From contig NZ_CP008874.1 of assembly GCF_001011115.1 (NCBI RefSeq), positions 62,001 through 126,000 of the forward strand: a stretch of DNA of 64,000 bases. Direction: 5' to 3'. The notes beneath the pieces were generated by a model. It saw only the letters and a program-made list of their open reading frames with translations, was not told where the DNA came from and did not search any database. Origin of the DNA: Halanaeroarchaeum sulfurireducens (GTDB lineage: Archaea; Halobacteriota; Halobacteria; Halobacteriales; Halobacteriaceae). Positions 29,843 to 41,046 of the stretch are shown piece after piece; the first letter of the stretch is position 1; every line of letters begins with the position of its first letter. Both the position numbers and the translations under genes were made by a program.

Positions 29843-30913
29843 TCAGCGGTCACCGCCGAGGTTTTCGGGCGGATCGTAGGTGACCAGCAGGTCCGGGGTG
29901 ATGGCGTAGTACAGCCCCCGGGTGGGTTCCTCGATGACCGCAACGTCTGAGTCGATGGCGAAGTCGACCAGGTCGGCGAAGGAGTCCACAGTCGCGGTCT
30001 CCCGGTCGAGGACGGCGTCGGGCAACTCGGCGCGGACGACCCACTCGTCGAACTCCTGGCGCTCGTCACGGTACGCGAGGCGGGTCCGCTCCGCGTCAGA
30101 AAGTTCGAGCGGTTCGTCGCGGTAACGGAGCATCCCCAGGGCGGCCAGCCCACCGAGGCCGAGGAGCAAGGCGAGGGGACCGCCGTAGCTCAAAAGCGGG
30201 CCCCGATCACGCGTGACGGTTTCAGTCGTGGTGACGGTCACCTGCTCCGAGGTCGCCGTCGGCGAGCCGATCGAATAGGTGTCGCCGGAGAGCGTCACGG
30301 GGAGCGTGGCGGTGTAGGAGAGACTGGACGACCCGCCGGCGTTGGACGAGGCCGTCACGTCCACGGCGATGTACGTCTCGAGATCGCCGGGTGACCCGCC
30401 GAGCACCTCGGTGATGTTCCCCCGGCGGTCCGCTTCGCGGGTGGCATTGAACGAGAACGCGAGCGTTTCCCGTTCGCCGGGGTCGAGGACGCTCCCCGTG
30501 GACGCGAGATCCGTGCTGTCCGACCAGTAGACCGCGTCATCGTCGGCGGCCCGGTGGACCAGTCTGCTCTCCATGGTCACGTTGGCCGGCGTGCTCGTCG
30601 CGCTGTCGTACTGGAGCGTGAACGTCCCGTTGAGAACCGGCGAGACGCTCGTGAAGTAGGTCGATCGATCGGTCAGCGTTATGCCCACTGGAAACACCGG
30701 ATTCTCGCGTTGCACCTGCGAGGAATGGTCGAACGACCCCTCCGTCGACCACGCGGTCTTCTCCTCAGTCCTCTCGACGGTCCCTGGGTCGACGTGTGCA
30801 GCGACCGTCGCCCATCCCCCGAGCGCGGCGAATACGACCAGTACGACCACCAGAACCGGGAACCAGGAATCGAGAATCGCCCGCAGTCGAAGTCCAAGAG
30901 TACCCTCCCTCAT
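29843..30913 (-). CDS. DUF5305-type membrane protein
   Basis: This 356-residue protein has an N-terminal transmembrane helix (about 15-38) and an extracytoplasmic beta-rich domain of about 190 residues with many Ser, Thr and Val. A second helix at about 240-262 and a cytosolic C-terminal domain (about 265-356) follow. I recognise the layout as the DUF5305 family found next to archaeal signal peptidases. Function is unknown. It is the last gene of a run of four same-strand genes with signal peptidase, rhomboid-like protease and a secreted protein, and probably works with them at the cell surface. Confidence 0.75.
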   Translation of the reverse strand: MREGTLGLRLRAILDSWFPVLVVVLVVFAALGGWATVAAHVDPGTVERTEEKTAWSTEGSFDHSSQVQRENPVFPVGITLTDRSTYFTSVSPVLNGTFTLQYDSATSTPANVTMESRLVHRAADDDAVYWSDSTDLASTGSVLDPGERETLAFSFNATREADRRGNITEVLGGSPGDLETYIAVDVTASSNAGGSSSLSYTATLPVTLSGDTYSIGSPTATSEQVTVTTTETVTRDRGPLLSYGGPLALLLGLGGLAALGMLRYRDEPLELSDAERTRLAYRDERQEFDEWVVRAELPDAVLDRETATVDSFADLVDFAIDSDVAVIEEPTRGLYYAITPDLLVTYDPPENLGGDR

Positions 30914-30988
30914 CGGCAGAGGGTTCCCAAGCGTCCCCCAAAGTTGTGTCGGTGTGATGGAACCTTTCCCCGGTCAGTCCTCGTCGGC

Positions 30989-32152
30989 TCACGGCGTCAG
31001 GAACGATAGCAGTCGACTGGACCACGACCGATCGTATCGTGACTCGCGGCGACGCACACGGATGCGTCGCCCGCCCAGCAGTCCCCGTCCCAGGAGGACG
31101 ATCGCCCCCGCGAGCAGCGCGTCGATTGCCACGATGGGCGCCCAGGGATGGACGCGATAGAGCCCGTCGATGACGCCCGGCGGGAGCAAGGCGAGATATC
31201 GGTGTTCCGTGACGTACTGGCGGTAGTATCCGGTGTCGGGTGGGGCAGTCAGGGTCAACGTTGCCGTCGTGGAACTTCGGCTGCCAACGTACTGGTGCTC
31301 GGGCTCGATGGCGACGCCGTCGCTCCCCGATTCGAGGTAGACGTGAACGGGGACGAGGCCTGCGTTCGGCACCTGGTAGTCCATCGTCGACGACTCGCCG
31401 GCCGGAATTACCGTGGGTCGCTCGGAGTCGAACTCGGCGCTGACGATGCCGATCGACTGGGTGCCCGCCGGGACGACCATCGCCGCGGTCGCAGTCACCA
31501 CCAGCAGCGCCGCCAGCGCGGCCACGACCGTCGCCCCGTCGATCCCCTCGTCGTGTTGTTTCGAGCGCGTCCGCTCGCGCGTGCGGCCCTCGTCGATGAA
31601 TATATCGACGACGTAGAGCGCCCCCGACAGCCCCAGCAGGAGGTACGCCAGCCCCTGTGTCCCGAGGAGCGCTCGGCTCCCGGTGAGCGCCGCCATCTGG
31701 CGCTGGACGGTCTCGAAGGCGTCCTGCATTCCCATCACGGCGGTGCCGAGATGTGGGATCACCACCGTCCGATCGCCGATCTGGAGGGCGTGCGCGACGA
31801 TCTGGGCCTCCTTCACGGGTGGCTCGTCGCCGTCCTGGTCGGTGAAGGGGTTGGCGTCGCCACGCGTGACGTATCCCCGTTCCGTCTCGCCGACGATCCG
31901 GTGGGTCGTGAGCCCGCCTCCCTGGAGTTCCTCGGCCTCGAAGGTCACCACGTCGCCCTCTTCGGGCGGTCCAGCCACTGCGGATGGGATTGCGACGAAG
32001 CCGTCGCCCGGCTCCATCGTCGGGGCCATGCTCCCGGTCTCGACGAACCCGAACAGGACTGGCGTCCCGAGCACCTGGCCGACGACGAGGGCTCCGACGA
32101 TCCCGATCGCGACGACCTCCAGTGCGGTCCCGGCGACTCCCCGTGCGTCCAT
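30989..32152 (-). CDS. Signal peptidase I, ER/archaeal type, with extra C-terminal domain
   Basis: This 387-residue protease has Ser41 (ETGSMAPTMEPGD), His84 (TTHRIVGE) and Asp99 (YVTRGDANPF). That is the Ser-His-Asp arrangement of SipW/ER-type signal peptidases, not the Ser-Lys of bacterial type. A transmembrane helix lies at about 10-32. It is much longer than the ~200-residue minimum. After the catalytic part come further membrane helices near 160-180 and 205-230, then a beta-rich extracellular domain and a last helix near 345. It lies among genes for SipW-type secreted proteins and may be their dedicated peptidase. Confidence 0.87.
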   Translation of the reverse strand: MDARGVAGTALEVVAIGIVGALVVGQVLGTPVLFGFVETGSMAPTMEPGDGFVAIPSAVAGPPEEGDVVTFEAEELQGGGLTTHRIVGETERGYVTRGDANPFTDQDGDEPPVKEAQIVAHALQIGDRTVVIPHLGTAVMGMQDAFETVQRQMAALTGSRALLGTQGLAYLLLGLSGALYVVDIFIDEGRTRERTRSKQHDEGIDGATVVAALAALLVVTATAAMVVPAGTQSIGIVSAEFDSERPTVIPAGESSTMDYQVPNAGLVPVHVYLESGSDGVAIEPEHQYVGSRSSTTATLTLTAPPDTGYYRQYVTEHRYLALLPPGVIDGLYRVHPWAPIVAIDALLAGAIVLLGRGLLGGRRIRVRRRESRYDRSWSSRLLSFLTP

Positions 32153-32176
32153 ATGATCTGTCGATTAATCGATGCG

Positions 32177-39575: not shown

Positions 39576-40148
39576 ATGCTCTCGGTTGCACGTGGGGGAG
39601 TGTCCGAGACGAGTGGACCCAGCGAGGACGACCTCTTCGAGGTCCTCTCCAACCGCCGGCGGCGGTACACGGTTCACGCACTCGGGCAAGAGGCGGGCGC
39701 CGTCGAGCTCGGCGCCGTCGCGGAGCGGGTGGCGTCCTGGGAGTACGACGTGGCCGAATCCGAGTTGTCGTACGACCAGCGCAAGCGCGTCTACACCGCG
39801 CTGCAGCAGTCTCACCTCCCCAAGATGGACGACGCAGGTATCGTGGCATTCGACAAACAACGGGGAATGATCGAGCCGGAACCGGCCCTCGAGGAGGTCG
39901 ACGTCTACATGGACATCGTGCAGGGCCGGGAGATCCCCTGGAGCCAGTACTACCTCGGGCTCTCCGGCGTGGGTGCGGCGCTCGTGGCAGCGGTCTGGAT
40001 GAGCGCGTGGCCGCTGACGCTGGTGCCGACGATGGGGTGGATGACCGCTATCGTGGCGGCCTTCACGGTCTCGGCGGCGATCCACACCTACTACGCGAAA
40101 GCGTCGCGAATCGGCGCGGGAGACAAACCCCCGGAACTCGAGCGGTAA
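39576..40148 (+). CDS. Winged-helix regulator with C-terminal membrane helices (DUF7344-like)
   Basis: This 190-residue protein has an N-terminal winged-helix domain (SEDDLFEVLSNRRRRYTVHAL, YDQRKRVYTALQQSHLPKMDDAGIVAFD). Two C-terminal transmembrane helices (about 130-175) follow. The pattern is that of the haloarchaeal DUF7344 regulators. A membrane-bound regulator next to exported proteins suggests local control. I chose the ATG at 39576 because TTTATTA at 39544-39550 is 29 bases upstream and fits a leaderless transcript. Starts at 39495 and 39516 precede that box. The next gene follows after 7 bases. Confidence 0.8.
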   Translation: MLSVARGGVSETSGPSEDDLFEVLSNRRRRYTVHALGQEAGAVELGAVAERVASWEYDVAESELSYDQRKRVYTALQQSHLPKMDDAGIVAFDKQRGMIEPEPALEEVDVYMDIVQGREIPWSQYYLGLSGVGAALVAAVWMSAWPLTLVPTMGWMTAIVAAFTVSAAIHTYYAKASRIGAGDKPPELER

Positions 40149-40155
40149 TGGGCCC

Positions 40156-41046
40156 ATGAACGGACGGAAATTCGTCAGTCTCGTGCTCGCGGGCGCGGCA
40201 GTCCTGACGCTCGCGTTCGGGTCCGGGGCGTTCACGTCCGTGGCGGCCGAGCGTGGCGTGTCGGTGGCGGTGGTGAGCGACGAGAACGCGTACGTGGGGT
40301 ACGAATCGGGAGATGTGAGAGTGATCGGTGGGGAAGGCGTTTGGCCCGGGAATGGAAACGGGCAAAAGCACCGGTACGGGCAAACTGTAAGGGGCCACGA
40401 GTGCTTCGATGATGGGGATGTCGTCCTCGTGAACGTCACGAATCGGTTTGCGGGGAGTGTAGCGATTGAGGACGTCGACGTCGGTCCGAACGCCCCGTTT
40501 GAAAAAGGGGACCTCACCTACCCCGAGGACTCGAACATAACGTCCGGTGATTCTCATCCCATCGTCTGGGAGGACCCGAACTGTGACGTGCTGTCGACAT
40601 CGACCGTCGCTCTGACTGTCGAGGTGGCCGGCTCGGGCGTCTGGGCGGAGATCGACGGCGATACCGCGACGCGCGAGATCGGGGTTACCTGTGCTCCATC
40701 CGAGGCCGTGAGATTCTACGGAAACAACGGCAAGATTAAGATCTCCGCTCTGTCTGAAGAAGTGTCCGTAGACTATTGGACGATGAATGCGAGCGGAAAC
40801 GATGAGCTCGCCCATGAGGGCAATATAGACGACGTAAGCACGAACGATCCACTGGTAACGAAGGGGGACCCCTTCAACAGGCAAAACAATAGTGCCGTGG
40901 TCGCGGTGTATCTGCCGACTTACGGCGTGGCCTACGTAAATCCCCAGTATATGGATAACATCACCGCCGACCAACTCAACGACGACCTCGTCGACGTGGA
41001 TCTCGAAGACGACCGAGTGCTCAAAGGCGAGCGGAACGGAAACTGA
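40156..41046 (+). CDS. Exported SipW-type protein, regulator-linked
   Basis: This 296-residue protein has a signal peptide NGRKFVSLVLAGAAVLTLAFG, then GSGAFTSVAAERGVSVAVVSDENAYVGY, the same block as in the minus-strand paralogues. The signal lacks the RR pair, so it probably uses the Sec route. The rest is beta-rich with four Cys spaced through it and no recognised module. It follows the membrane-bound winged-helix gene by 7 bases and is likely its co-transcribed target or sensor partner. Confidence 0.78.
   Translation: MNGRKFVSLVLAGAAVLTLAFGSGAFTSVAAERGVSVAVVSDENAYVGYESGDVRVIGGEGVWPGNGNGQKHRYGQTVRGHECFDDGDVVLVNVTNRFAGSVAIEDVDVGPNAPFEKGDLTYPEDSNITSGDSHPIVWEDPNCDVLSTSTVALTVEVAGSGVWAEIDGDTATREIGVTCAPSEAVRFYGNNGKIKISALSEEVSVDYWTMNASGNDELAHEGNIDDVSTNDPLVTKGDPFNRQNNSAVVAVYLPTYGVAYVNPQYMDNITADQLNDDLVDVDLEDDRVLKGERNGN

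Follow-up and report, generated by a model that had tools for sequence, protein, structure and literature searches.

Gene content and conserved order of the locus

The window analyzed here, a 64,000-nucleotide stretch (NZ_CP008874.1, positions 62,001 to 126,000) of the 2.21 Mb genome of the haloarchaeon Halanaeroarchaeum sulfurireducens, contains a cluster of genes for exported and membrane proteins that is considered below as a candidate locus for a Tat-fimbria (tafi), a pilus whose subunits are exported by the twin-arginine translocation (Tat) pathway. Genes encoding three pilin-type subunits (T1, T2, and T3), a histidine kinase, a TafF-like membrane protein (B), a rhomboid protease (R), a signal peptidase (S), and a DUF5305 protein (D) follow one another in this order on the minus strand, with B, R, S, and D tightly packed (intergenic gaps of 24 to 75 bp). 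A winged-helix protein (W, 39576-40148) and a further subunit (X, 40156-41046) are encoded on the plus strand, divergent from the subunit operon. All open reading frames (ORFs) named in the initial annotation, which had proposed a dedicated surface-protein system, are present in the window ORF list with matching coordinates, and its assignments of the signal peptidase, rhomboid, DUF5305, and winged-helix proteins hold, as judged from family matches and from invariant catalytic residues in S and R.

S (30989..32152, minus strand) is a signal peptidase of the S26B, Ser/His type which, as read from its sequence, has additional transmembrane (TM) helices and an added beta domain on the extracytoplasmic side. 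It matches the archaeal-type model TIGR02228 (1e-12), and its family shows no variation at Ser41, His84, and Asp99/105. Because the genome has another, separate match to a signal peptidase, S is likely dedicated to the cluster. D (29843..30913, minus strand; DUF5305, E=2.5e-41) comprises a TM helix, a beta-sandwich ectodomain, another TM helix, and a small cytosolic domain. Its AlphaFold model (pLDDT 93.9) matched only Ig/Fn3-like folds (the TMEM106B luminal domain and ApaG), and a role as pilus chaperone was rejected, as these matches are generic and include no pilus chaperone; our guess is that D may serve as an assembly or anchoring platform. W, with a DUF7344 winged helix (6.8e-30) and C-terminal TM segments, is a predicted membrane-bound regulator. 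The histidine kinase (34052..35335, minus strand; HisKA and HATPase) lies between the TafC-like T3 and the TafF-like B. It is the membrane kinase counted in the initial annotation, but it is not conserved in the cluster: it occurs at only 3 of the 64 loci described below and was rejected as part of the module because it is absent elsewhere, including from the same-genus genome G001 (L045). It is thus treated as a lineage-specific insertion outside the conserved module.

The gene order X-W / subunits-B-(R)-S-D is shared across Halobacteria, recurring in dozens of genomes from many families and genera. Counted descriptively over 64 named loci with enough flanking sequence, pilin-type subunits are present at 60, W at 58 (encoded opposite to the rest in 57 of these), D at 57 (with a D-S gap below 400 bp in 55), and R at 22. 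Among 59 related genomes, full-length S and TafE-like genes are both present in 31 and both absent from 23, with one only in 5 (Fisher 5e-11), and the nearest subunit gene lies at most 5.3 kb from S in 27 of the 28 genomes with placed matches. Independent scattering of these families in other haloarchaeal genomes had been named as the observation that would speak against a dedicated system; because the same order was found across Halobacteria, that objection falls away, and a co-conserved surface-fiber system with its own signal peptidase is supported. The drop in GC to 0.50 within the cluster, the adjoining transposase, and the eight plasmid records with related clusters would fit a chance assembly of unrelated surface proteins or their hitch-hiking on mobile DNA, but the recurrence of one gene order across so many families and genera refutes this explanation, to which we give practically no weight.

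The eight plasmid records, all haloarchaeal, match S, and signal peptidase/DUF5305 clusters of this type are found there (e.g., L165 and L166), so the locus can ride on mobile replicons; names were obtained for these records, and none carries a tafi annotation. A haloarchaeal tafi-type cluster is also present on a contig (L155) of a "Mollicutes bacterium" metagenome-assembled genome, probably owing to a binning error. Related but different small clusters, encoding a subunit with a non-RR signal, a short signal peptidase (333 aa), and a DUF5305 protein, occur in genomes G013 and G004 (L083, 5972-9018; L084, 5682-8788).

Pilin-type subunits and their relation to Tat-fimbriae

In NCBIfam searches, T1, T2, T3, and X match TafE/TafA, and T3 additionally matches TafC. 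T1 (38734..39351, minus strand), the predicted major pilin, is TafE/TafA-like (TafE 72.8 bits, under the cut-off of 155), with the Tat signal MQRRKFLA and a GTGA/FTSV site, where the slash marks the predicted cleavage point. T2 (37243..38718, minus strand; Tat signal MKRRHYLI) combines a pilin domain with a NosD-like parallel beta-helix (DUF1102 1.2e-7; TafE 48 bits; NosD 41 bits) and is probably a minor or adhesive subunit. The TafC-like T3 (35775..37115, minus strand; Tat signal MNRRKYLA) joins a pilin domain to a C-terminal LamG domain (LamG 2e-27; DUF1102 2.5e-5; TafC 67 bits, under the cut-off of 410), so that both the LamG and the beta-helix modules recognized earlier are borne out. X, whose gene comes immediately after that of W in the same orientation, matches TafE/TafA in its N-terminal region and has a Sec-like signal but keeps the GSGA/FTSV block. 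DUF1102 was detected in two of these four proteins. G035 (L064, L075) has 13 TafE-like matches, most of which cluster at ~2.53-2.56 Mb, which suggests a pilin-variant expansion.

Twin-arginine motifs are present in T1 (RRKF), T2 (RRHY), and T3 (RRKY), whereas the X signal reads GRKF and is more hydrophobic (hydropathy 2.5). This division extends to the relatives: a strict Tat motif occurs in 50 of 52 distinct first subunits, whose signals are weakly hydrophobic (mean hydropathy 1.60), compared with 22 of 60 members of the X class, whose signals are more Sec-like (mean 2.34). The idea that all X subunits are devoid of Tat signals was rejected, since the class is mixed. The genome holds three TatC matches. 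With three of its four subunits dependent on the general Tat machinery, the system is not self-contained, contrary to what had been suggested.

The block G[TS]GA[FL]TSV.A.R occurs literally in exactly four of the 327 window ORFs of at least 70 aa, namely T1, T2, T3, and X, the same four exported proteins in which it had first been noticed; a rough composition estimate gives ~4e-6 chance occurrences in 64 kb. It had been described as a signal end. A peptidase site within it is indeed probable, but the conserved stretch continues far into the mature protein: within the subset bearing the block pattern, F is found at +1 in 99%, V at +12 in 81%, and D at +17 in 94%. Counting X, first, and other subunits together, 210 of 250 have the donor-strand motif (56 of 61 in the X class), as opposed to 1 of 73 B-type proteins. 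In PDB 9p0a ("Structure of Natrinema sp. J7-2 Tafi pilus"), 188 of 215 residues are present in the structure library, and the 27 absent residues equal in number the stretch up to GTGA, which suggests cleavage at GTGA/FSSV, with Thr/Ser at -3, Ala at -1, and FSSVEADRTVSV as the mature N-terminus. In Bacillus, TasA is processed by SipW and polymerizes through its N-terminal strand, whose contacts include F29, I32, and F39 (PMC9674648); by eye, F29 and I32 correspond to F+1 and V+4 of the window proteins. Based on the 9p0a gap, the extended conservation, and the likeness to the TasA strand, the block is probably a signal-peptidase site followed by the first residues of a mature donor strand.

Tafi is a published haloarchaeal pilus type with Tat-exported subunits and a solved structure (Galeva et al. 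2025, iScience 28:111793, as cited in PMC12687288). The 9p0a sequence matches the first subunit of Natrinema pallidum L163 with 389 bits over 214 residues, in a locus ordered X-W / T-B-S-D; T1 occupies the same position as this gene, whose product is near-identical to 9p0a, and is therefore taken as the major pilin. T1 itself matches 9p0a at 6e-10, with a further 9p0a match of 1.9e-11 in the subunit homology test, and a fold search with its structure model returned 9p0a (prob 0.99), AbpA of Pyrobaculum (7ueg, 0.99), and FimA (0.98), consistent with the predicted donor-strand type of subunit. In addition, L068 has TafA, TafE, and TafC above their cut-offs alongside S, W, and a TafF-type gene scoring 299 bits, and a second such locus, L077, has TafA, TafC, and TafE with S, W, and D.

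With subunit homology, Tat signals on T1 to T3, a LamG-bearing minor subunit, and a TafF-type protein all present, the cluster is very probably a divergent tafi locus. Homology and co-conservation show that its pilin-type subunits belong to the tafi/DUF1102 family and travel with S, W, B, and DUF5305. The extracellular polymer system envisaged by the initial annotation is thus upheld as a surface fiber, but the known system to which it corresponds had not been named. Several points weigh against this interpretation. All window proteins miss the curated, equivalog-level NCBIfam cut-offs (TafA 42/190, TafC 67/410, and TafE 73/155 bits), and the T1 model, with its first six mature residues omitted, reaches a TM-score of only 0.42 against 9p0a. 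The 9p0a cleavage site derives from the number of modeled residues, not from inspected coordinates, and the locus and genome counts share ancestry and are descriptive rather than phylogenetically independent. Donor-strand exchange in tafi, the position of B at the base, the polarity of the fiber, and the role of D are parts of the model that we infer. As for the cut-offs, the near-identical Natrinema homologue of 9p0a also falls under them (78 bits for TafE and 56 for TafA), so they mark one sub-lineage.

The initial annotation had instead pointed to bacterial SipW/TasA matrix fibers, which would make S a SipW orthologue and the products a Sec-exported biofilm matrix. The SipW model does match S weakly (5e-6), the fold search with T1 ranks the TasA-like AbpA among its top hits, and the N-terminal strand by which SipW-processed TasA polymerizes has its likely counterpart here. 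However, S reaches only 26.3 bits where the curated SipW model requires 190, Tat signals are present on three of the four subunits, and the closest solved relative is named a Tafi pilus, not TasA. A matrix of this type is accordingly improbable, and the resemblance is one of fold and mechanism only.

The TafF-like protein B and the rhomboid R

B (33086..33943, minus strand) has a Sec-type signal, a pilin-fold domain without donor strand, an acidic linker, and an EPAA-TM-RR tail (33089-33190). It had been described as a fifth exported protein of similar layout, and it does share the fold domain (pilin profile A4 against B-type profile A6: 99.4%, E=6e-22, 131 columns beginning past the N-terminal strand) and has a membrane tail, but the FTSVxAxR strand is missing and the protein is a different, anchor-like part. 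B-type proteins carry a strict Tat motif in 21 of 70 cases, with more Sec-like signals (mean hydropathy 2.60). Among 22 of them, CARDB is found in 15, DUF1102 in 11, PGF-pre-PGF in 11, and TafF in 8; window B itself has no match to the TafF model, whereas relatives do.

The lack of a donor strand combined with a membrane tail allows two readings, of which an anchor is preferred. Alternatively, B could be an initiating tip, accept-only like FimH and retained at the membrane up to the point at which its tail is cut by R, with the fiber then growing out below it. Accept-only subunits form the tips of chaperone-usher pili, B relatives carry CARDB and other adhesion-like domains, and R would provide the release step. 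However, relatives without R still keep a membrane tail, and one relative bears a PGF-CTERM signal, which according to PMC7157517 results in a lipid anchor and not in release; likewise, the rhombosortase substrate VesB of Vibrio is described as a surface protein (PMC13393428). The tip reading is therefore unlikely, albeit credible, and B is probably the anchor of the fiber, accepting but not giving a strand.

R (32177..33052, minus strand) is a rhomboid intramembrane protease and the predicted partner of the B tail. Its catalytic residues H71/N75, S131 (GFSG), and H261 are invariant in the family, for which the best model is rhombosortase (TIGR03902) in eight of nine members, under the cut-off; window R scores 20.7 of the 84 bits needed. 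At R-containing loci, B tails read EP[AGS]G[FI]-TM-RR, and the tail motif is found on B at 29 of 34 loci with R nearby compared with 6 of 29 without (locus-level Fisher 2e-7, not corrected for shared ancestry). A tail profile (A7) run over 15 genomes, with E <1e-8 taken as a strong match, hits this genome strongly once, at B (E=4.7e-12), and G045, which has one R, three times; those strong matches that were checked on maps belong to TafF-type proteins within tafi clusters. R is present in all 11 tail-bearing genomes. In G016 and G020, of the Halobacterium family, the tail has no R nearby and R lies ~170-180 kb away. Three of the four tail-less genomes (G001, G032, and G044) are without R; the fourth, G006, has R, closely preceded by a weak hit of the tail profile (E=0.004).

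Rhombosortase and GlyGly-CTERM were defined by a like pattern of co-distribution (Haft and Varghese 2011, PMC3237569), and the present pattern suggests that R and the B tail are a dedicated archaeal rhombosortase-like pair. We tentatively propose, with somewhat less than even confidence, that cleavage by R of the tail on the accept-only TafF-type protein fixes the fiber at the cell surface, as an alternative to the archaeosortase/PGF-CTERM signal seen on a relative. The R/EPxG-tail pair was not found described in the literature searched, and a paper on Haloferax volcanii rhomboids (PMC11985538) makes no mention of rhombosortase, signal peptidase, or fimbriae. While the tafi type is already known, this pair is, to judge by that literature, the new sub-finding; if correct, it would identify what a class of archaeal rhomboids acts on and show that rhombosortase-like sorting is not confined to bacteria.

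In the proposed mechanism, the subunits would fold in the cytosol and exit by Tat, with X and B exported by Sec. S would cut at G[TS]GA/F, and F[TS]SVxAxRxVxV, the N-terminal strand thereby released, would plug the groove of the next subunit, giving a donor-strand fiber decorated by the LamG and beta-helix subunits. B, offering a groove and a membrane tail but no donor strand, would anchor one fiber end, with R processing its EPxG tail, D acting as a membrane platform, and W switching the operon. The locus links a little-studied pilus class with a complete conserved gene set in which a dedicated signal peptidase and a rhomboid accompany the proposed regulator, anchor, and membrane platform, and the question of how folded Tat-exported pilins polymerize and attach without a chaperone-usher machine becomes gene-specific.

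Beyond the cluster, the genes immediately after DUF5305 (27797-29768) encode an ECF transporter, with a T component, an ATPase, and a BioY-like substrate protein assigned by eye. On the other side, the gene at 41381-41674 is CopG/VapB-like, and the PIN-type gene after it is interrupted by an IS630-family element; the PIN identification in this region (41381-43242) was made by eye, with no model match obtained. The IS630-family transposase (41756-42837) is itself split over two frames, and the insertion lies at a TA that is present at both ends.

Comparison with known systems

The R-B pair resembles rhombosortase/GlyGly-CTERM in uniting a rhomboid protease with a co-distributed target that ends in motif, TM segment, and basic residues, and in most single-target genomes rhombosortase and its target are encoded side by side (PMC3237569), as are R and B here. 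The motif differs (GlyGly versus EPxG), the window is archaeal, and R scores under the rhombosortase cut-off. The subunit fold is shared with the AbpA bundling pili (7ueg, prob 0.99) and the Sulfolobus threads (7pnb, prob 0.47). Threads assemble by donor strands, as is predicted here, although the thread paper attributes their export to Sec, unlike the Tat signals of the window. The Bacillus TasA/CalY-SipW-TapA system also has a beta-sandwich subunit, an N-terminal donor strand, and a dedicated signal peptidase in the operon. However, most window subunits are exported by Tat rather than Sec, no TapA was found here, and a rhomboid, a DUF5305 protein, and a TafF-type anchor are additional.

The likeness to tafi comprises Tat-exported pilin-fold subunits, a LamG minor subunit, and a TafF-type membrane protein, together with the same S peptidase and W regulator that adjoin curated tafi genes. 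The window differs in that its subunits lie under the TafA, TafC, and TafE cut-offs and are encoded by several genes, including a beta-helix one, and in that the operon adds the rhomboid and DUF5305 and contains an inserted histidine kinase.

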